Shown here piece after piece: positions 8,471 through 24,866 of a stretch of DNA of 28,288 bases; within the stretch, counting starts at the first letter, position 1, and each line of letters begins with the position of its first letter. The DNA is from a virus: positions 1-28,288 of IMG/VR virus record IMGVR_UViG_3300037258_001179, one strand, 5' to 3'. The notes below the pieces were generated by a model. That model did not search any database. It worked only from the letters and a program-made list of their open reading frames with translations, and was not told where the DNA came from. The translations under genes were made by a program, and so were the position numbers.

Positions 8471-10432
8471 ATGCCCTCGGACGGAATCGAAACGCCGTTG
8501 CCGGCGAGCCTGTTCGCGCGCCTGGCCGCCGCCGCGCGCTACGCCATCACCGGGGTGACGCCCGATACCTGGTTCGGCCCGCAACAGCCGCTCACGCCCC
8601 AGGCGCCGCCGGAGGTCAAGGGCCGGCAATGGGACTATCCATTCGGCGTCAACCTCTCCTACGTCCCGCGCTCGGAAGCGGGCATCTCGTTTCTCGAGTT
8701 GCGCGCGCTCGCCGACGCGCTGCCGCTGCTGCGAGCGGTGATCGAGACCCGGAAGGATCAGATCGCCGGGTTGAATTGGTCGGTGCGCGCGCGCGATCCC
8801 TTCGGCTCGCCAAACGCGGGCGCGCGGATCGCCGCGGCGCGCGGCTTCCTCGCGCGCCCCGACCGCCGCCACGACTTCGCGACTTGGCTGCGCATTCTGG
8901 TCGAGGACATGCTGGTCATCGACGCGGCGACGATCTATCCGAGATTCGCGCTCGATGGCTCGCTCTACTCGCTCGACGTCATCGACGGCTCGACCATCAC
9001 GCCGCTGATCGGCGAAGACGGCCGCTCGCCGGAGCCGCCCGATCCCGCCTACCAGCAAGTGTTGCACGGCGTGCCGGCGGCGGACTTCGCCTTCGACGAT
9101 TTGCTGTATCTGCCGCGCAATGTCCGCTCGCACCGGCTCTACGGCATGAGCCCGGTCGAGCAGATCGCGCTGACGATCAACATCGCGCTGCGCCGCGACA
9201 CCGCGACGCTCGACTACTATCGCATGGGCTCGGTCCCGGACTCCTTCGCGACGCTGCCGAAAGACTGGACGACGGATCAGCTCAGGCAGTTTCAGGATTA
9301 TTTCGACTCGCTGATGAGCGGGAATCTCGAGCGCCGGCGGATGGTCAAGTTCATGCCGGCGGACTTCAAGCTGATGGAAACCCGCCAGCCGCCGCTGAAG
9401 GATCAGTACGACGAATGGCTGGCGCGGGTGATCTGCTACGCCTTCTCGGTCCCGGCCTCGGCGTTCGTGTCGCAGGTCAACCGAGCCACCTCCGAGACCC
9501 TGCGGATGCAGGCGACGCAGGAAGGGCTGGCACCGCTGAAATCGTGGGTCAAGAACGCGCTCGATTGCGTGATCCAGGTCCACCTCAAACAGCCCGATCT
9601 CGAGTTCGTCTGGGTCGGCGATGACGGCGTCGATCCGCTGGAGCAGGCGCAGACCCTGCAGATCCTGGTCGGCGCGGGGATCAAGACGCGCGAGGAGGCG
9701 CGGGCGGATCTGGGGTTGGCGGCGGAAAGTGGCAAGGGCGCGCCCGGGTTGGGGAAGTTCAACCCGTATCACGATGAACAAGGGCGGTTCACGGGCGCGA
9801 CGGGGGCGGTCGATACACGCGGGGATGTCAATCGGGCGCCGAGGTCGGAAAGCATTCAGGTTGCCGCTCTCGACAATTTCGCGGCGGACGCGAGTGTCGC
9901 CGGAGGCGATTCCAACGCCGTCGCGGCCGGCCCGACGATGCCGATGATGGAAGAGCCGGCGCCGGAGCCGGTGAAGCCAACGGAGCCCAGCCCCGCCGCC
10001 CCCGACTCGGCTAACCCGTCGACCAATCCATCAACTTCGGGTTCTGGTCGCGCGGCGGCGCTCGTCGATCCGACATTGCTCGATCGAATTATCGCGTCAG
10101 GTGTCAAGGTCACGCCTGAAAACGTTGTTGCGACGGGCGTAATGCCGGATGGAAGGATGGTCTGGCTCGAAACGGGCGACAAAGATAGCGGTCTCGCGCA
10201 TATCATAGGCGACCACGGATTGGAATTTACGAAAATCGGCGTTGCCGACGCAGATATTCCTCAGGTGATTATCAACGCGTTGACAAACGGTACAATAGTT
10301 GGTTACCAGGGCCAAGGCAACGATCGGCCAATTATTGAAACTGAAATCAACGGGGAGCAATACAAAATAGCTATTACGGTCGGGTCTAACGGATATATAG
10401 TCGGTGCGAATATGAGAGGTCGCTCGCGATGA
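8471..10432 (+). CDS. Portal protein fused to a C-terminal toxin-like domain
   Basis: Residues 1-430 look like a phage portal protein, the dodecameric ring through which DNA enters and leaves the head. Seen are LRAVIETRKDQIAGLNWSVR, DAATIYPRF, LYLPRNVRSHRLYGMSPVEQ and SQVNRATSETLRMQ. Typical portals end near here. This one continues with NPYHDEQGRFT (431-441), a motif type I associate with phage proteins carrying effector tails. A Pro/Ala/Ser-rich linker follows (about 442-525), then a compact domain (526-653) described separately. AAGGAA lies about 8 bases before the ATG. The stop overlaps the next gene by ATGA. The gene lies after the tail terminator, not after terminase, which is unusual. 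The portal call is secure; the toxin part is an inference. Confidence 0.85.
   Translation: MPSDGIETPLPASLFARLAAAARYAITGVTPDTWFGPQQPLTPQAPPEVKGRQWDYPFGVNLSYVPRSEAGISFLELRALADALPLLRAVIETRKDQIAGLNWSVRARDPFGSPNAGARIAAARGFLARPDRRHDFATWLRILVEDMLVIDAATIYPRFALDGSLYSLDVIDGSTITPLIGEDGRSPEPPDPAYQQVLHGVPAADFAFDDLLYLPRNVRSHRLYGMSPVEQIALTINIALRRDTATLDYYRMGSVPDSFATLPKDWTTDQLRQFQDYFDSLMSGNLERRRMVKFMPADFKLMETRQPPLKDQYDEWLARVICYAFSVPASAFVSQVNRATSETLRMQATQEGLAPLKSWVKNALDCVIQVHLKQPDLEFVWVGDDGVDPLEQAQTLQILVGAGIKTREEARADLGLAAESGKGAPGLGKFNPYHDEQGRFTGATGAVDTRGDVNRAPRSESIQVAALDNFAADASVAGGDSNAVAAGPTMPMMEEPAPEPVKPTEPSPAAPDSANPSTNPSTSGSGRAAALVDPTLLDRIIASGVKVTPENVVATGVMPDGRMVWLETGDKDSGLAHIIGDHGLEFTKIGVADADIPQVIINALTNGTIVGYQGQGNDRPIIETEINGEQYKIAITVGSNGYIVGANMRGRSR
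10046..10432 (+). other. C-terminal polymorphic-toxin domain of the portal protein (PBECR-like)
   Basis: Residues 526-653 follow the pattern of a toxin domain family found at the tips of polymorphic toxins and phage proteins. It has an MVWLETG strand (Trp565), a GLAHIIGDHG motif with His577 and His582, an IPQVIINAL helix, GTIVGYQGQG, DRPIIETEING, and a final SNGYIVGAN signature. From memory this resembles the phage Barnase-EndoU-ColicinE5/D-RelE-like (PBECR/BECR) nucleases, so an RNase with catalytic histidines is the best guess. Base composition falls here, with many A/T-rich codons (around 10200-10400), unlike the portal part. A cognate immunity gene follows at once. Toxicity and target are not shown by sequence. 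Confidence 0.65.
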
Positions 10433-10734
10433 GAACGATAAAATTGATGGCGGACTACCTTTCATATCCAATCTGGGAGGGTATAAATGGAGACATCCCT
10501 CCAGATTCTCTGCCAATTTCTGAATCACTCACCGATTCTTTGTTGAATTGGGCCTCCGATTATGACAAAACTTTCGTTTCGTACGACCCGCCATCATCTG
10601 GATTTGAGTCGCAAGAATCTGCGGATAAATTCGTCGCGACTGGCTACGATTTGCTGTCTCGCCTCAAGGCTGAGCTAGGCCCAGATTTTGAGATTGCGCA
10701 CAGTATCAGGGCACGGGTTAAACCGACAGCCTAA
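10429..10734 (+). CDS. Probable immunity protein for the portal-linked toxin
   Basis: A small acidic protein of 101 residues with the layout of immunity proteins encoded behind contact-dependent or polymorphic toxins: an N-terminal strand (IKLMADYLSYPIW), a central LNWASDYDKTFVSYDPPSSGF segment, and a helix with SADKFVATGYDLLSRLKAELG. The pattern of a DYD stretch, DPPSSGF, and a LxxRLKAELGP helix is one I recall from immunity proteins paired with related toxin tips. The start overlaps the toxin stop (ATGA at 10429), with AGAGG 9 bases upstream, giving tight coupling. Composition is about 44% G+C over 10441-10560, against about 62% at 9301-9360, so the pair looks recently acquired. The immunity role is inferred. 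Confidence 0.65.
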   Translation: MRTIKLMADYLSYPIWEGINGDIPPDSLPISESLTDSLLNWASDYDKTFVSYDPPSSGFESQESADKFVATGYDLLSRLKAELGPDFEIAHSIRARVKPTA

Positions 10735-10793: not shown

Positions 10794-11069
10794 GAGTGGT
10801 GGGCGCGGGTGATCTGTTGTGTGGTCTCGACCCCAGCGTCGCCGCTCGTCAGTCAAGTCGTATCGTATGGGCTCGGTACCAGATTCCTTCGCGACGCTGC
10901 CGAAGGACTGGAGGACGGATCAACTCAGGCTTCCAGGATTATTTCGACGCGCTGATGAGCGGCAATCTCGAGCGCCGGCGGATGGTCAAGTTCATGCCGG
11001 CGAAGTTCAAGCTGATGGAGACCCGCCAGCCGCCGCTGAAGGATCAGTATGACGAATGACTGGCGCGGG
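10794..11069 (+). pseudogene. Two scrambled, decayed fragments of the portal gene
   Basis: Fragment A (10794-10859) aligns without gaps to 9413-9478 of the intact portal gene, about 70% identical by hand count. Fragment B (10861-11069) aligns to 9218-9428 at clearly higher identity, with a net 2-base deletion (CAGGCAGTTTCAGG has become CAGGCTTCCAGG). The order is reversed relative to the intact gene: A derives from a more 3' part than B. B has a nonsense change, Trp TGG to TGA at 11057-11059. The open frames that remain are therefore not functional portal proteins. The fragments begin about 60 bases after the immunity gene, the arrangement expected when toxin modules are swapped and old gene pieces are left behind. 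Confidence 0.85.
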
Positions 11070-11094
11070 CCAACCGGCGCGCTGGTCGATCGCC

Positions 11095-11173
11095 GGCATC
11101 GCCAGCGGAGCGAGGCATTCTGGCCGCGGCGAGAGACGAAGCCGATGGATGACCTCGCTTCGCTCGCCATGAC
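11095..11173. repeat. Second REP-like inverted repeat, upstream of the tail tube gene
   Basis: Arms at 11095-11115 and 11153-11173 pair with 17 of 21 positions matching. Read on the minus strand the element begins GTCATGGCGAGCGAAGCGAGG, which is related to the repeat at 4988-5064. The remaining interval 11174-11237 holds only the GGAG ribosome-binding site (11228-11231) of the next gene. Confidence 0.65.
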
Positions 11174-11237
11174 GGCGCGGGCGAGGAATTCCCCCGCGGC
11201 CGGCCGCCGCCCCAAACTTCACCCCACGGAGATCCCC

Positions 11238-11972
11238 ATGTTCGTCTTTGGCTCCGGCGTGCTGATCGGCACGCCGCAAGGCGGGACGCCGATCAATTTC
11301 GGCCTCGCGCAGGAAATCTCGCTCAATATCGCGACCACCACAAAGGCCCTCTATGGCCAGAACAACTTTCCGGTCGCGATCGGCTCCGGCACGCGCAAGA
11401 TGACCGGCAAGGCCAAGCTCGCGCGCATCTCGGGCCAAGCGCTCGGCAACTTGTTCTTTGGCGTCTCGCCGAGCGTCGGCGGCGCGCAGACGCAGTTCGG
11501 CGAGGCGACCAACGTGCCGGCGAGTTCGCCCTATACCTACACTACGACCTTCCACACCACGTTCGTCTCCGACCAGGGCGTCGTCTACGCCTCCAGCGGG
11601 CTGCCGCTGAAGTTGGTCGCGTCGTCGCCGGCGACCGGACAATATTCCGTCGCGTCCGGCGTCTACACCTTCGCCGCCGGCGACGCGGGCGCGGCGGTAT
11701 TGGTCTCTTACACCTACACGGTGACGTCGAGCGGCGAGAGCATCGCGGTCACCAGCCAGTTGATCGGCCCGTCGATCACGTTCTCGGCCAATCTTTTCGC
11801 CTCCGATCCGACGAGCGGAAAGCAGTTTTCGCTGCTCCTTTACAATTGCGTTGCCGAGAAGCTCGCGTTCGGCACCAAGCTCGAGGACTTCATGATGCCC
11901 GAACTCGACTTCCAGTGTTTCGCCAACGCCGCCGGACAGGTTTGCCAGCTCAACTTCGGAGACGCCGCGTGA
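11238..11972 (+). CDS. Major tail tube protein
   Basis: The 244-residue protein is the likely subunit of the tail tube. It starts with short strands (VFGSGVLIGTP, INFGLAQEISLNI), then a TGKAKLARISGQALGNLFFG region, and ends with FSANLFASDPTSGKQFSLLLYN and a Met/Phe-rich strand; this is the usual order in tube proteins of this group. Residues 117-160 contain a small beta module (GQYSVASGVYTFAAGDAG) also found in the connector and tip proteins, probably displayed on the tube surface. GGAG lies 6 bases before the ATG. The position before the tail chaperones fits. The stop overlaps the chaperone GTG start (GTGA). Confidence 0.75.
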   Translation: MFVFGSGVLIGTPQGGTPINFGLAQEISLNIATTTKALYGQNNFPVAIGSGTRKMTGKAKLARISGQALGNLFFGVSPSVGGAQTQFGEATNVPASSPYTYTTTFHTTFVSDQGVVYASSGLPLKLVASSPATGQYSVASGVYTFAAGDAGAAVLVSYTYTVTSSGESIAVTSQLIGPSITFSANLFASDPTSGKQFSLLLYNCVAEKLAFGTKLEDFMMPELDFQCFANAAGQVCQLNFGDAA

Positions 11973-12346
11973 GCGACGAGACCTTCGCGATAGAACTCGC
12001 GGGGCTCCGCTGGTTGCTCCCGCATCTGCCGTTCCGCGCAATCAAGGCGATCCAGCCGGCGTTGTTCCAAGTCTACGCCGACGCGGGCGGCGCGAATCTC
12101 ACGACCGGAAGCGTCGCCGCGCTCGGCGAGGCCGAGATCGAACGCCTCGCCGAGGCGACCTGGCGCGCGATCTCGCATGTCGATCCCGCGCTGAGCTACG
12201 ACGACTTCCTCGCCCTGCCCTTTTCCGTCGGCGATCTGATCCAGGCGTTCCCGTCGGTCGCCAAGGCGGCGGGGCTGCGCGCCAAGGCGAATCCGGCGAC
12301 GCCGGAGGCGTCGCCCGAGCCGGGAAAATCGATTTCGACGCCGTGA
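11969..12346 (+). CDS. Tail assembly chaperone, G-type product
   Basis: From the GTG at 11969 the gene encodes 125 residues, mostly helical (AIKAIQPALFQVYADAG, EIERLAEATWRAISH, SYDDFLALPFSVGDLIQAFPSVAKAAG) with a Pro-rich end. Lambda gpG-type chaperones bind the tape measure protein and recruit tube subunits. The position between tube and tape measure genes, the small helical product and an in-phase slippery heptamer near the 3' end all support this role. About four-base overlaps join it to genes on both sides. The start is GTG with no strong ribosome-binding site, so it is probably translationally coupled to the tail tube gene. Confidence 0.8.
   Translation: MSDETFAIELAGLRWLLPHLPFRAIKAIQPALFQVYADAGGANLTTGSVAALGEAEIERLAEATWRAISHVDPALSYDDFLALPFSVGDLIQAFPSVAKAAGLRAKANPATPEASPEPGKSISTP
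12322..12328 (+). promoter_or_regulatory. Predicted programmed -1 ribosomal frameshift site (G GGA AAA)
   Basis: The heptamer GGGAAAA is in the exact phase for -1 slippage: zero-frame codons read CCG GGA AAA TCG. After the shift the frame reads on through ATC GAT TTC GAC GCC with no stop and joins the downstream frame, giving a fusion of about 196 residues (11969-12558). Tail assembly chaperones of many siphophages use such a site; lambda uses GGGAAAG. Confidence 0.8.
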
Positions 12347-12558
12347 TCGCCCAGGTCGTCGCCAATACGGGCTGGACCTGGGACGAGGCGCTGGATGGAC
12401 TGACCCTGCCGCGCCTGCTCGCGTTGCAAGCCGAATGGCGGGCGCGGCCGCCCGCGCATTGGTTGCTCGCCAGCGCGTTCAAATACCGCGCGCCCGACGC
12501 CGCGGCGGCTCCGCCGCGCCAACCCACGATCGACGAATTGAAGGCGGCGCTCCGCTGA
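12343..12558 (+). CDS. Tail assembly chaperone, T-type extension
   Basis: This open frame encodes about 71 residues from a GTG that overlaps the previous stop (GTGA), but it is probably made mainly as the C-terminal part of a -1 frameshift fusion. The fused junction would read GKIDFDAVIAQVVANTGWTW, a natural continuation. The segment has GWTWDEALDGLTLPRLLALQ, a pattern of tail chaperone T domains, which link the G domain to the tail tube subunit in lambda. The Ala/Pro-rich tail ends with IDELKAALR. Independent initiation at the GTG cannot be excluded. Confidence 0.75.
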   Translation: MIAQVVANTGWTWDEALDGLTLPRLLALQAEWRARPPAHWLLASAFKYRAPDAAAAPPRQPTIDELKAALR

Positions 12559-12598: not shown

Positions 12599-13837
12599 AT
12601 GTCCGACGCCAACGTCGCCGTCACCTTCTCCGCGTCGGTCGGCGATCTCGTCTCGGGAATCGCCGACGCGCGCGAGGCGCTCGCGAGCCTCTCCGCGCCG
12701 ATCTCCGAAATCAGCGGCCAGTACGCATCGCTCGGCGCCTCGCTGACCGCCGCGCACGCGCAAGCCGCCGCCGCGCTCCGGTCGGGCAACGACGCAGCCT
12801 ACGGCGACGCGCTGCGCGCGGCGCGAGACGCCGTCAACGAGGAGATCAAAGCAGAGCGCGACGGTGTCAAGCAGAAGCTCGCCATCTACGCCGACGACGC
12901 CCGCGAACACCGCATCACCCAGCAGGAGAAAGTCGCCTCGTCGCGCGAAGCGATCGACGAGGCCTATTCCGCCGAGTTCGCCTCTCTGCAAAAGGAAGCC
13001 GCGCTCGGCGCACGGACTCTCGATCAGAAGCAGCGGATCCAGAATCAGATCCTCGACGCCGAGCGGCGGCACCAGGACCAGATCGAACAGATTACCCGGC
13101 AATCGCTCGACGAGCAGCAGCACGAATACGAGGCGTTTGGCAATGCGATCACGCAATCCTTCGACTCGCAATTGCGCGGACTGCTTTCGGGCACGGAGAA
13201 CTGGCACACCGCGTTCAAGAACGTGCTCGAGGATCTCTTGATCAAATTCATCGAATGGTGCGAGACCTCGGTCGTGCAACATGTCGCGGCCGAAGCCGCC
13301 AAGACCTCGGCGACGACCGCCGGCGTCGCGGCGCGGACGGGGACCGAGCAGGCGGGCGCGGCCGCCTCGCTGGCGGCGCAAGGCGCGGCGATCATTCGCT
13401 CGATCATGTCGTCGGCGGCGGAGGCGTTCGCCGGCGTGTTCGGGTTCCTCTCCCCGATCCTGGGGCCGTTCGCCGCCGCCCCCGCGGCCGCCGCCTATGG
13501 CGAGGTGGCGGCAAAAGTCGGGTCGGTCGCCTCGGCGGATATCGGTATGTGGAGCGTTCCCTCCGACATGCTTGCGCTCATCCACCACAACGAACTGATC
13601 ATGCCGGCGGCCCAGGCCGGCGCGTTCCGGGACTTGCTGTCCGATGGCGCGCCCCAGGCCGGCGGCGCTCGCGCGGCGGTCCACATCCACCCGACCACGA
13701 ACTTCCATGTGTCCGCCATCGATTCCGGGTCGGTCGCGCAGTGGATGCGGTCGAACAGTTCGACAATGCTGAAGGCGATCGACGAAGCGGTCCGGCACGG
13801 CGCGCATCTCGGCACGCGTCGGCTGGCGAATTCTTGA
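12599..13837 (+). CDS. Tape measure protein (short)
   Basis: The 412-residue protein sets tail length and is probably ejected with DNA. It has a long alpha-helical, charged region (residues about 60-200, with KAERDGVKQKLAIYADDAREH and QNQILDAERRHQDQIEQIT). An Ala/Gly-rich hydrophobic stretch follows (about 235-310), and then the conserved end segment MWSVPSDMLALIHHNELIMPA, typical of phage tail length proteins. At about 1.5 Angstrom per residue this predicts a tail near 60 nm, short for a siphophage but close to GTA-like particles. It follows the chaperones by 40 bases. The length estimate is an inference from the usual scaling. Confidence 0.8.
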   Translation: MSDANVAVTFSASVGDLVSGIADAREALASLSAPISEISGQYASLGASLTAAHAQAAAALRSGNDAAYGDALRAARDAVNEEIKAERDGVKQKLAIYADDAREHRITQQEKVASSREAIDEAYSAEFASLQKEAALGARTLDQKQRIQNQILDAERRHQDQIEQITRQSLDEQQHEYEAFGNAITQSFDSQLRGLLSGTENWHTAFKNVLEDLLIKFIEWCETSVVQHVAAEAAKTSATTAGVAARTGTEQAGAAASLAAQGAAIIRSIMSSAAEAFAGVFGFLSPILGPFAAAPAAAAYGEVAAKVGSVASADIGMWSVPSDMLALIHHNELIMPAAQAGAFRDLLSDGAPQAGGARAAVHIHPTTNFHVSAIDSGSVAQWMRSNSSTMLKAIDEAVRHGAHLGTRRLANS

Positions 13838-13846
13838 GACGCGACC

Positions 13847-16324
13847 ATGGGCTACATCGCGGGAGTTCACCTCCTGCCCGCCACCGGCGAGTTCACTTAC
13901 GACACGGTCGCTTACGAGGGCGCGCGGCCGGGCGCGCCTTCCTCGCCGATCAACACCTTTTTCGCACCCGGCGGGTCGAAGACCGACTGCAGTTACGCCA
14001 TCGATCAATTGGTCGCGGCGCATCCCGAATGCGCGACGGTCGCGCTGGTTTGCGCGTGGTTCGCTGATTCACTCGACGCCGCGACCTGTCGAGTCTACCC
14101 CGCCACGACCTTTGTCGGAGGGACATTCCAACAGATCGGCGGCGCGGCGGATCTCTGGCGCGTGTCCAGCCTGGACCAGACCTCGCCCGGCCTCATCGCG
14201 CTTCCGATAAACGGATCGAGCTTCGTTTACGGGGGCACGCCGTCCGATCAGAGCGTCGTGCGTTGCCTCAGGGATTTGCGGGCGCGCGGCTTCAGGATTG
14301 TGTTCTACCCCTTCCTCCTGATGACCGCTTCTGGCTACCCCTGGCGGGGGCTCATCACCCACGCGCCCGATATGACCTCCGCCGCGACCACCGCGGTCTC
14401 CGCGTTTCTCGGATCGGCCTCCCCGACGCAGTTCACCCTCGATCCGGTCAACCTGACGGTCGCCTATTCGGGTTCGCCGACGGACTATTCCTATCGCCGG
14501 ATGATCTTGCACTACGCTTGGCTCTGCGTGGTCGCGGGCGGCGTCGATCTCTTCCTGCTCGGCTCGGAGTTGCGGGGCCTCGAGTCGATACGAGGCGTCG
14601 ACTGGACCGCCGCGGGGACGACCGACGGTTTGGGAAAAGCCGTCTGGGACTATCCGTTCGTGGCGGGCCTCAACACGCTCGCCGCCGACGTGCGCGGCAT
14701 CTTCGACGGCCAAGGCCTGACGAAGAACCTTTCGACGCTGACGAACTTGGTCGCCTATTCCGCCGACTGGTCGGATTGGATGGGGTTTCAGCATCCGGGC
14801 GCCGAGGGCCAATGGCCGCATCTCGACTCGCTGTGGGCGAATTCGGCGATCGACATGGTCGGTTTCGACAACTACCTTCCCCTGACCGATTGGACCACGG
14901 GCAACGGCGGGCTCGACGCGGTGGAGTGGCTGACCCCGGCGCCGTCCGGCCCCTGGCCGCCCAGCGACCCGTCGATGAGCGGCCTCGGGCAATCAGGGCC
15001 GCCGACGATCTATTCGCTATCCTATCTGAAAGCCAACATCGAGGGCGGGGAGAAATTCAACTGGTTCTACGATGACGGAGTGAACGCCGGGCCAGGATTC
15101 GATCCCGACGGCTCCGACACGATCGTGTCGCTGCCCCAGGGCGATCGGTTGGCGCAAACACGAAGCGCCTATTCCGCCGATCAACAATTGCTCGCCAACA
15201 AGCAGCTGCGCTGGTGGTGGAACAATTCGCACCAGGCGATCTACGACAACGGCGACGGCCACGGTTGGGCGCCACACGGACCGACCACCGAATGGGTTCC
15301 CCAATCGAAACCGATCGCCTTCATCGAATATGGCGTTCCCGCGTGCGACAAGGGAACGAACCAGCCGAACGTGTTTTTCGATCCGAAGTCGACCGGCAGC
15401 GCGACGCCCTATTGGTCGCTCTGGCAAGAGGTCCCCGGGGGTGGCTACACTCCACTTCGCGACGACACGATCGCGACGCTCGCATTGCAGGCGATCTATC
15501 AATATTGGAACGCTGACGGCCACAACGCCACGTCGTCCGGCGGCGTCCCGATGGTCGAGTTCGCGTTCTCTTGCGTTTGGAACTGGGACGCGCGCCCGTT
15601 TCCGGTTTTCCCCGTCCTCGCGAGCCAGTGGGGCGACGCGGGAAATTGGCAAGCCGGGAACTGGCTCAACGGGCGCGGGCCTTCGCTGCCTCCGGTTGCA
15701 CCCTCGCCTCCACCCACGCCGGGCAACTATCCGAGTTTTCCGACGCTTTCGACTCTCGGATGGTCGACGCATGTCAAGCCGAGATTCGCGACAGACGTCG
15801 CCGATCACGCCTCGGGCCGTTCGACGAGGCGGTCGCGCCGCGCGGCGGCGTACTATGACGTCGAATTGACCTTCGATCTGCTGCGCTCCGATGCGGCGGA
15901 CCTCGAGATGCAAGCGATCGCCGGCTTCTTTGAAATGACGAGCGGGGCGGCGACGCCGTTCTGGCTCGCGCCGCCCGCCTTGTCCGCGGTCTCGGACCAG
16001 ACGCTCGGCGTCGGCGACGATGTGTCCTCGAGGTTCGCGCTTATTCGCTCCTTCGGCGGATACGACGAGCCCGTCGCGGGAACTTCCAGCGTCTCGGCGG
16101 CCTATCTCGATGGCGTCGCCCAATCGGTCGGCTCGTGGTCGGTCACCTCGGGCTACGCACCCGCGATCGTCTTCGCGGTCGCGCCGCCGATCGGGGCGGT
16201 CGTCTCGGCGGACTTCGAGGCGCTGTGGCTCTGCCGCTTCGCCGAGGACGCGCTCGATCTCGAGGAGTTCATGTCGATGCTGTTCGAGCTTCGAACCGTC
16301 AACCTGTCGACGGTGAGGCCATGA
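13847..16324 (+). CDS. GTA TIM-barrel tail protein fused to a DUF2460-like domain
   Basis: The 825-residue product has two parts. Residues 1 to about 610 match the glycoside-hydrolase-like TIM-barrel domain of GTA host-specificity proteins. Diagnostic stretches are YSADWSDWMGFQHPGAEGQ, IDMVGFDNYLPLTDW, LKANIEGGEKFNWFY and PIAFIEYGVPACDKGTNQ. A Pro-rich linker (near 614-626) leads to a DUF2460-like domain (about 629-825, starting YPSFPTLSTLGWSTHVKPRF) that is paralogous to the next gene. In Rhodobacter GTA the barrel is part of gp15, whereas here it is separate and upstream. It may bind or cleave envelope or capsule glycans; activity is unproven. The stop overlaps the next start (ATGA). Confidence 0.85.
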   Translation: MGYIAGVHLLPATGEFTYDTVAYEGARPGAPSSPINTFFAPGGSKTDCSYAIDQLVAAHPECATVALVCAWFADSLDAATCRVYPATTFVGGTFQQIGGAADLWRVSSLDQTSPGLIALPINGSSFVYGGTPSDQSVVRCLRDLRARGFRIVFYPFLLMTASGYPWRGLITHAPDMTSAATTAVSAFLGSASPTQFTLDPVNLTVAYSGSPTDYSYRRMILHYAWLCVVAGGVDLFLLGSELRGLESIRGVDWTAAGTTDGLGKAVWDYPFVAGLNTLAADVRGIFDGQGLTKNLSTLTNLVAYSADWSDWMGFQHPGAEGQWPHLDSLWANSAIDMVGFDNYLPLTDWTTGNGGLDAVEWLTPAPSGPWPPSDPSMSGLGQSGPPTIYSLSYLKANIEGGEKFNWFYDDGVNAGPGFDPDGSDTIVSLPQGDRLAQTRSAYSADQQLLANKQLRWWWNNSHQAIYDNGDGHGWAPHGPTTEWVPQSKPIAFIEYGVPACDKGTNQPNVFFDPKSTGSATPYWSLWQEVPGGGYTPLRDDTIATLALQAIYQYWNADGHNATSSGGVPMVEFAFSCVWNWDARPFPVFPVLASQWGDAGNWQAGNWLNGRGPSLPPVAPSPPPTPGNYPSFPTLSTLGWSTHVKPRFATDVADHASGRSTRRSRRAAAYYDVELTFDLLRSDAADLEMQAIAGFFEMTSGAATPFWLAPPALSAVSDQTLGVGDDVSSRFALIRSFGGYDEPVAGTSSVSAAYLDGVAQSVGSWSVTSGYAPAIVFAVAPPIGAVVSADFEALWLCRFAEDALDLEEFMSMLFELRTVNLSTVRP

Positions 16325-16938
16325 CGACGCCGCCCTCGTTCCCGACGCTGCCGGGACAAGGCTGGAGCGTCCACAAGAAACCTACGTTCGCGACGATCGT
16401 CGCGAGCCACGTCTCCGGACGCGAGGTGCGCGACGCGTTGTATCAAAATCCGATCTGGCAATTCGAGTTGCGTTTCGACGGGTTGGGCTCGGATTCAATT
16501 TCGTACCCCGGCCTCGGCGCCCAATCCTTGCAGGGCCTGATGGGCCTGTTCCTGCAATGCCAGGGCCAGTTGGGGACATTCCTCTATATCGATCCCAGCG
16601 ACAATTCCGCTACGAACCAGACATTCGCGACCGCCGACGGCGTGACGACGAGCTTCACTTTCGCCCGCGCGCTCGGCGGATTTCTCGAGCCGGTCGGCTG
16701 GGTTACGAGCGTCTCTCAAGTGACTATCGCCGGCGTCGCCCAAGGCTCGGGTTGGTCATTGGCCGCCCCGGCCAGCCTCGTATTCGCGGCAGCGCCGGCG
16801 AGCGGCGCGGCGATCGGCGCGTCATTCGCCTACGCGTTCGAATGCCGGTTTGACGACGACTCGGCGGATTTCGAGGAAGTCATGCGAAATCTCTGGACGC
16901 TGGAGAGTCTCAAGTTCCGGTCGGTGCGCACGTCATGA
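16321..16938 (+). CDS. Distal tail protein, DUF2460 family (GTA gp12-like)
   Basis: The 205-residue protein has the DUF2460 pattern: an N-terminal FPTLPGQGWSVHKKPTFAT region, a central QGLMGLFLQCQGQLGTFLY segment, and a C-terminal beta-domain with DGVTTSFTFARALGGFLEPV and VFAAAPASGAAIGASFAYAFECRF. In GTA this family forms the distal tail ring that joins the tube to the baseplate. Overlaps of ATGA on both sides show tight coupling with the TIM-barrel gene and the hub gene. It is a close relative of the last 197 residues of the previous protein, so the window holds two copies of the domain. Confidence 0.85.
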   Translation: MTTPPSFPTLPGQGWSVHKKPTFATIVASHVSGREVRDALYQNPIWQFELRFDGLGSDSISYPGLGAQSLQGLMGLFLQCQGQLGTFLYIDPSDNSATNQTFATADGVTTSFTFARALGGFLEPVGWVTSVSQVTIAGVAQGSGWSLAAPASLVFAAAPASGAAIGASFAYAFECRFDDDSADFEEVMRNLWTLESLKFRSVRTS

Positions 16939-21822: not shown

Positions 21823-22209
21823 ATGTGTCATAAACCGCTTCGGGCGGCGCTCGTCTGCGCCCTGCTCGCCGCGCCGGCGATGGCGCAGACTTACAGGGAT
21901 TCCGGCGGCACCGTCGTGCCCGGGGTCGTGCCCCTGCCCTTCGCCTATACGCCGATGCCGCCCGGTCAGCACAATTTGGCGCCGGCCTCGGCGACCGCGC
22001 TCACTATTCCCGCGGGCGCGCGGCTGGCGACCATTTGCGCATCCACCGCGCCGGTCAAGTACACCACGGACGGCGTCACGACGCCGACCGCGAGCGTGGG
22101 ACAGCCACTGGCGGCAGGCGCTTGCGTAATCTTGTCCGGCCCCGCCGTTATCGCCAATTTCCTTGCGATTTCCGCGGGGGGAACGCTCGACGTGGAGTAT
22201 TTTCAATGA
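21823..22209 (+). CDS. Small exported tail-cluster protein with QTYRDSGGTVVP motif
   Basis: The 128-residue product begins with a clear Sec signal peptide (KPLRAALVCALLAAPAMA), predicted to be cut before QTYRDSGGTVVPG. The mature part is strand-rich (TALTIPAGARLATICAST, VILSGPAVIANFLAISAGGT). GAGGA lies about 8 bases upstream of the ATG. The same signal-plus-motif pattern recurs in the protein at 24381. Its stop overlaps the tailspike start (ATGA). I recall such small proteins near alphaproteobacterial phage fibre genes but know no function. It could be a fibre accessory, a chaperone or a periplasmic protein. Confidence 0.7.
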   Translation: MCHKPLRAALVCALLAAPAMAQTYRDSGGTVVPGVVPLPFAYTPMPPGQHNLAPASATALTIPAGARLATICASTAPVKYTTDGVTTPTASVGQPLAAGACVILSGPAVIANFLAISAGGTLDVEYFQ

Positions 22210-24269: not shown

Positions 24270-24380
24270 ATGTCATCGCGTCGAGCTTCGGCTGGGCCCC
24301 GATGACTCGGCATGCGGGACCGACGCACGGTCTCGACCCACCGCGTCGACGTGAAACAACGATCCGCGAGAGAATCCGAA

Positions 24381-24866
24381 ATGTTCAACCTTCGCTTGCT
24401 CAGAGCCGTGTTCGTGGGTCTCGGAATCGCGGCGGGGCCCGCCTTCTCGCCGCGTTCGCTGGCGCAGACCTACCGTGATTCCGGCGGGACGGTCGTGCCG
24501 GCGATCGGGCAGGCCGGCTCGAACGGTAAGGACTACAGCGCCAATCCACCGACGCCGCCGAACATCGGCGCGAATTTCGGCGCGACCGGGCCCTACGCCA
24601 ATTACGTCCTGATCGCGACCGTCCCCGCGAGCGCGACACGCTTCTTGATCGATGTCGAGAACACCTCGGGCGCGCAGGTCGTCATCGTCCGTGACGACGG
24701 CGTGGCATCGGGGGGCGTGTCTCCCGCCAACGCCAGCATCTTCGCGCTCGGGGCAGGTTCGGGGGTCGGTTCGCAGGGCGGTTCGTGGTCTTCGCTGACT
24801 TTCAAGGGGCGGGCGCAGATCTATGCGCCATCGTCGATGGCACAAGTCGCCGTGTTCGTGGATTGA
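24381..24866 (+). CDS. Exported tail-cluster protein sharing QTYRDSGGTVVP motif
   Basis: The 161-residue product carries a signal peptide (hydrophobic AVFVGLGIAAGPAF, cleavage likely after SLA) and then QTYRDSGGTVVPAIGQ, nearly identical to the mature start of the protein at 21823. After that the sequences differ: here a linker rich in Pro/Gly/Asn, then a beta-domain (YVLIATVPASATRFLIDVEN, VVIVRDDGVASGG, FKGRAQIYAPSSMAQVAVFV) that resembles a jelly-roll or fibre-head fold. Nearby GAGAGA upstream could serve as ribosome-binding site. It lies between the tailspike and the esterase genes, so a role at the tail periphery or in the periplasm is plausible. No function is known. Confidence 0.65.
   Translation: MFNLRLLRAVFVGLGIAAGPAFSPRSLAQTYRDSGGTVVPAIGQAGSNGKDYSANPPTPPNIGANFGATGPYANYVLIATVPASATRFLIDVENTSGAQVVIVRDDGVASGGVSPANASIFALGAGSGVGSQGGSWSSLTFKGRAQIYAPSSMAQVAVFVD

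Follow-up and report, generated by a model that had tools for sequence, protein, structure and literature searches.

A predicted programmed -1 frameshift and a conserved upstream hairpin in the putative tail chaperone genes of uncultured phages

Programmed -1 frameshifting in tail chaperone genes is textbook biology, and a pair of overlapping reading frames ahead of a phage tape measure gene raises the question of whether two separate proteins are made from it or one protein together with its frameshifted extension. Such a pair is found in a 28,288-base virus record (IMG/VR IMGVR_UViG_3300037258_001179, positions 1-28,288), the whole of which is referred to here as the window. A first-pass annotation, made from the letters of the window, had proposed that an in-phase GGGAAAA joins the two frames by a -1 shift, and that the GTG overlapping the end of the upstream frame would be the start of the second gene in a conventional two-gene reading.

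The gene order is of the tailed-phage type: portal, probable tail-tube gene, the two frames, tape measure and baseplate (Table 1). The tape measure protein is the expected partner of tail chaperones. The product encoded directly 5' of the chaperone-like frames, a position that is the basis for its assignment as the tail tube, matches phrog_8234 (3.3e-46) and phrog_2729 (5.6e-5); this assignment is weaker than that of the tape measure, since phrog_8234 is of function unknown and phrog_2729 is a "virion structural protein". With that qualification on the tail-tube call, the overlapping frames lie between the major tail and tape measure genes, as do G and GT of lambda. A chaperone function is suggested by this gene order before the tape measure and by the two-frame architecture.

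Table 1. Coordinates of the features at the two-frame locus (positions in the window)
Feature	Position	Strand	Remarks
Probable major tail (tube) protein gene	11238..11972	+	Start approximate (ORF 11049-11972)
Upstream (G-like) putative tail assembly chaperone ORF	11969..12346	+	125 aa, GTG start
5' hairpin GCGACGC-CGGAG-GCGTCGC	12296..12314	+	9 bp GGCGACGCC/GGCGTCGCC in the window
Shine-Dalgarno-like GGAGG	12304..12308	+	13 nt before the heptamer
Slippery heptamer G_GGA_AAA	12322..12328	+	Phase is that of the upstream frame; kept in relatives
Downstream (T-like) -1 frame	12322..12558	+	Conserved protein; phrog_8018, 1.9e-6
GTG proposed as separate start, rejected	12343..12345	+	GTG in 3/68, no Shine-Dalgarno
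Zero-frame stop TGA	12344..12346	+	Ends the unshifted protein
Tail tape measure protein gene	12599..13837	+	phrog_2854, tail length tape measure protein, 1.8e-17

Other parts of the window hold features that are of interest in themselves. The baseplate protein carries a GTA_TIM domain (9.8e-101) and, after it, DUF2460 and phiJL001-type hub domains. DUF2460 (distal tail) occurs twice in succession within 13847-16938, once fused to the GTA_TIM baseplate protein and again in the next ORF. In the portal region (8471-10734), the portal protein is extended at its C-terminus: about residues 430-653 form an additional part, whose match to PBECR1, a phage Barnase/EndoU/ColicinE5-RelE-like nuclease domain, is sub-threshold (E 0.014). 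A 101-aa ORF (10429-10734) that overlaps the portal stop and has no family match could be an immunity protein. At 10861-11069 is a decayed duplicate of the portal gene, with 211 aligned bases that are 92% identical to portal positions 748-958 and a broken frame; it lies right behind the possible toxin/immunity pair, which gives the impression that a cassette has displaced the original end of the portal. In the tail-fibre region, the ORFs at 21870-22209 and 24372-24866 have a common start, AQTYRDSGGTVVP, after a signal-peptide-like leader, and the parts of them that were scanned gave no PHROG match.

Slip site and the two reading frames

Codons of the upstream frame begin at positions equal to 2 modulo 3 and read G GGA AAA TCG ATT TCG ACG CCG TGA, which places the heptamer in phase as had been claimed. 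The -1 frame, GGG AAA ATC GAT TTC and onward, is open without an intervening stop to the TGA at 12556-12558. Ribosomes that shifted would continue from ATC 12328, yielding a predicted fusion of 196 aa (the first 120 aa from the upstream protein, then 76 aa) as against the 125-aa unshifted product, and translation across the predicted junction, EPGK/IDFDAVIAQ, returns the peptide GKIDFDAVIAQ of the first-pass annotation. Nevertheless, the motif in a single sequence is weak evidence, since the window contains four copies of GGGAAAA where 2.4 would be expected, and an open -1 frame comes easily in DNA of 65% GC; indeed stops in that frame are absent from the entire upstream gene (zero in 11900-12555).

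Comparison among relatives is far more informative. Relatives were gathered from IMG/VR and from genome contigs, the latter including Methylocapsa sp. S129, a Bradyrhizobium MAG and a Hyphomicrobiales MAG, and removal of identical junctions left 68 close members (the window among them) and 18 distant ones; the upstream ORF is conserved in 67 relatives. A slip site was scored where the final 17 codons of the upstream frame contained X_XXY_YYZ or GGGGGAR in the -1 phase. By this measure all 68 close and all 18 distant junctions possess an in-phase site, whereas the counts for the remaining phases are 2 and 0 of the 68, and 1 and 2 of the 18. The sequences are related, so that 68/68 and 18/18 are not counts of independent events, but an excess of this kind over the other phases is not due to chance. 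The close junctions use GGGAAAA (35), GGGAAAG (28) or GGGGGAG (5), that is GGGAAAR in 63 of 68, and the distant ones G_GGG_GAR, C_CCA_AAA, A_AAA_AAA or C_CCT_TTG. On a 67-row tree of close members and a few intermediate ones, with the junction columns left out, the variants GGGAAAA, GGGAAAG and GGGGGAG require at least seven changes; the slip site therefore has switched repeatedly between working alternatives. A TGA or TAA stands at the zero-frame stop site in every one of the close members, seven of which also have TAG directly after the heptamer.

The conservation of heptamer and phase that had been named as a check is thus found throughout the family, relatives that keep the frames and lack a slippery sequence did not turn up among these junctions, and the proposal of a programmed -1 frameshift in a tail-chaperone pair gains strong support. 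The case from the single sequence is modest and the comparative case decisive: judged on the aligned junctions, the pair in the window is very probably decoded by a programmed -1 frameshift that would give two protein forms from one message. In E. coli GGGAAAA is reported to be an inefficient heptamer and GGGAAAG to be among the best (PMC4066793); the use of both in this family fits a moderate, context-tuned level of fusion and cautions against expecting high efficiency.

The conventional reading, in which two separate genes overlap at GTGA 12343-12346 and the second is translated by coupling or re-initiation, appears very improbable in comparison. The GTG at 12343 does exist in the window, where it overlaps the TGA, and the upstream gene itself starts at a similar GTGA overlap with the stop of the preceding gene (11969-11972). 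However, the GTG at 11969 has a GGAG 7 nt ahead of it, and a search of the window for a Shine-Dalgarno sequence ahead of GTG 12343 found none; the strong ribosome-binding site that would have spoken for a separate start is lacking there. Among the close members the codon at this place is CTG in 59, TTG in 4 and GTG in only 3; in 52 of the 68 the -1 frame has no ATG, GTG or TTG among its first 16 codons, and a start in that frame with a Shine-Dalgarno-like sequence occurs in just one. The downstream frame hence has no conserved start signal of its own, as is expected of the lambda G/GT type. Since neither start codon nor Shine-Dalgarno is conserved, and seven members have TAG after GGGAAAR, the second domain has no conserved route of expression besides the shift, and separate genes would in addition leave the in-phase slippery sites unexplained. 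Still less probable, to the point of being negligible, is that a sequencing or assembly indel, or decay of the gene, split one reading frame. A frame break inside one conserved protein can look alike, and the window does hold a decayed fragment of the portal gene, but the same break, in phase and at the heptamer, recurs in 67 other distinct contigs or genomes with the protein conserved on both sides, and this conservation rules out such a cause.

Neither protein is matched by a Pfam or NCBIfam model, and thus no named chaperone family was recovered from these collections; the upstream protein has no match among 50,697 phage records, and no credible sequence match was found among solved structures. 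The family itself was seen in one of 397 genomes sampled from the order of genome G002, namely G002 itself. A profile of the upstream family nevertheless aligns with that of the distant upstream proteins at 96.8% probability (hhalign, E 2.2e-10). Most of the distant upstream proteins that were individually scanned belong to phrog_7947 and the downstream frames belong to phrog_8018, both listed as "unknown function"; the upstream protein of one relative (L112) matches phrog_2115, "tail protein", at 1.2e-6. Isolated phages are included (L290 to L292): the homologous pair of frames, with G_GGG_GAA as the slip site, is present in Acinetobacter phages 5W and MD-2021a and in Pseudomonas phage KT1. 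At the 5W locus (L290, 2696-3270) the junction reads TCG GGG GAA TAG with a -1 continuation. The annotated records of 5W and MD-2021a present the frames as two separate hypothetical or uncharacterised proteins, the second of those in 5W, both hypothetical, starting after the junction. When the 5W frame is translated from the match point, the phrog_8018 profile starts to align only at residue 13, which is consistent with annotated starts that miss the junction. This indicates that phrog_7947 and phrog_8018 are the two halves of one recoded gene that is annotated in sequenced phages as separate hypotheticals.

Upstream hairpin and internal GGAGG

Two further elements at this locus, a 5' hairpin and an internal GGAGG, were absent from the first-pass annotation. 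The consensus hairpin has a 7-bp stem, GCGACGC-NNGAG-GCGTCGC, and ends exactly 7 nt before the heptamer; its loop and the opening base of the 3' arm together form GGAGG. Across the viral collection as a whole the hairpin 19-mer was found in 68 viral contigs, of which 57 then have GGGAAAR at exactly 7 nt. This placement, together with the single copy per contig or genome, led to rejection of a dispersed repeat as the origin of the hairpin. The element has no Rfam match to a known RNA family. A generic pattern, GGAGGCGN3CN7GGGAAAR, matches many unrelated contigs and so is not specific by itself, and a covariance model of the element gave weak, probably chance, matches below about 31 bits in GC-rich alphaproteobacterial genomes; the seven loci that were checked led only to the known case.

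Among 64 distinct sequences 97.1% of the pair cells pair. Pair 4 changes from A-U to G-C in three sequences and to G.U in two, U.G or G.U occurs at other pairs, and 10 of the 64 have the innermost pair broken; changes on both sides of the stem are seen at one pair only (3 cells). The hairpin of the window folds at -19.6 kcal/mol (z -3.65), and the mean 30-nt folding energy over the 68 members has its minimum of -15.6 at the hairpin, as compared to -3 to -12 outside the segments that overlap it; no 30-nt structure in the 150 nt to either side is stronger. Downstream of the heptamer no conserved 3' stimulatory stem or pseudoknot was found among the close members with RNAalifold.

Nucleotide-level selection on the hairpin block follows from its codon usage: at codons 110-115 the dominant codon is identical in 98-100% where the residue is kept, as against a mean of 70% elsewhere, even though residue 112 varies among P, R and Q and the linker around the block is variable on both sides. 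Relatives at intermediate distance lend support to a hairpin being favoured over a fixed sequence. L123 retains the hairpin, with one base deleted and pair 4 as G.U. The stem of L103 differs in sequence (CCGCCTC/GAGGCGG) and likewise stands 7 nt before GGGAAAA, and L109 has GCGGCCTC/GAGGCCGC 3 nt before C_CCA_AAA; L105, a near-twin of L103, is predicted to fold otherwise. It is accordingly rather doubtful that the slip site is real and the upstream block is kept for some other reason, as an ATPEAS linker peptide or as a DNA palindrome bound by a protein. The block does encode a nearly constant peptide, and its perfect inverted repeat is palindromic in DNA as well. A peptide, however, accounts poorly for codons that are almost fixed around a middle residue that changes within a variable linker, and a palindrome for the six departures to G.U or U.G, pairs that RNA allows but that break a DNA palindrome; neither would call for the constant 7-nt spacing of all 57 contigs that have hairpin plus heptamer, or for the L103 hairpin of other sequence at that same spacing.

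GGAGG stands at 13-nt spacing in 62 of the 68 close junctions. The spacing of a Shine-Dalgarno sequence that stimulates -1 frameshifting is given as 9-14 nt in PMC5009743, and the 13 nt found here fall inside that range. The stem has been lost in L022 and GGAGG kept at the same spacing, which suggests that GGAGG is more important than the stem. Three members with GGGGGAG (L021, L054 and L089) have lost the hairpin, and just 4 nt separate their GGAGG from the slip site, less than the stimulatory range. The prophage region of Methylocapsa sp. S129 (L116) likewise has GGGGGAG and lacks the hairpin. Another possibility is that the hairpin directly stimulates -1 frameshifting and GGAGG is incidental. 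Although the hairpin is the only strong local structure, such a direct role seems unlikely, if somewhat less so than a peptide or palindrome role, given the survival of GGAGG in the stem-less L022 and the finding that upstream hairpins attenuated -1 frameshifting in tests with 70S ribosomes (PMC6321510).

Proposed decoding of the gene pair

The two frames would then constitute a single gene unit like lambda G/GT. The majority of ribosomes would translate 11969-12346 to give the 125-aa putative chaperone, and a minority would slip back by one base on G_GGA_AAA to give the 196-aa fusion that ends at 12558. By analogy to lambda (PMC5009743), the short form would coat the tape measure protein and the fusion would recruit tail-tube subunits. 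The frameshift signal apparently consists of two conserved parts, the heptamer and a GGAGG that would act as a Shine-Dalgarno-type stimulator and is held largely in the loop of a stable hairpin. Hairpin and ribosome would compete for GGAGG: the folded hairpin may hide it from free 30S subunits, and a hairpin that refolds behind the ribosome may counteract backward slippage, and would in these ways help to fix the fusion at a low level. The function of the hairpin is the least certain step of this scheme, and we would put its chances at about even. Evenly balanced, too, is the more general proposal of a natural bacterial signal in which a conserved hairpin on the 5' side of the slip site contains a stimulatory Shine-Dalgarno-like sequence, where folding and anti-Shine-Dalgarno pairing would be mutually exclusive and would set the chaperone-to-fusion ratio without a 3' structure.

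The hairpin upstream of the slip site, which nearly all relatives keep along with the site, is invisible to standard annotation. About 65 naturally varied hairpin and Shine-Dalgarno arrangements at fixed spacing would make the role of 5' structure in bacterial -1 frameshifting directly testable, and a large uncultured family of alphaproteobacterial (mostly Rhizobiales) tail genes is added to the frameshift-decoded chaperones.

Relation to known systems

The frameshift is a further case of the known tail-chaperone type, from uncultured phages. Lambda G/GT (G_GGA_AAG) has likewise overlapping frames before the tape measure, the -1 phase and the same class of heptamer, and its GGGAAAG is the exact heptamer in 28 of the 68 members here. 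Unlike in lambda, the proteins of this family have no sequence match to named chaperone families, and they come with a conserved 5' hairpin containing GGAGG that is not mentioned for lambda in the review excerpts consulted. GGGGGAA is the "fivetwo" motif of actinobacteriophage chaperone frameshifts, with about a thousand such motifs in the PRFect work (PMC10885494); the distant relatives and Acinetobacter phage 5W share it in the form G_GGG_GAR in the same phase, whereas the window and its close family use GGGAAAR, and the hosts differ.

The conserved 5' hairpin with a Shine-Dalgarno-like sequence and no 3' structure was not found described in the literature searched, in which few subscription journals were covered. 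Its parts nonetheless have counterparts. Signals of the E. coli dnaX and IS911 type likewise have a Shine-Dalgarno-like GGAG(G) 9-14 nt upstream of an A-rich heptamer as a stimulator (PMC5009743, PMC4066793); they have a 3' stem-loop, whereas the present family gave no sign of a conserved 3' structure and has its GGAGG in the loop and stem of a hairpin. In the SARS-CoV-type attenuator, in the 70S tests (PMC6321510) and in the 5' stem-loop of T4 gene 60, a hairpin similarly ends within a few nt on the 5' side of the slip site. These examples, however, come from eukaryotic viruses, were designed or involve bypassing, and the hairpin of the present family is conserved among phages and carries a Shine-Dalgarno-like sequence.
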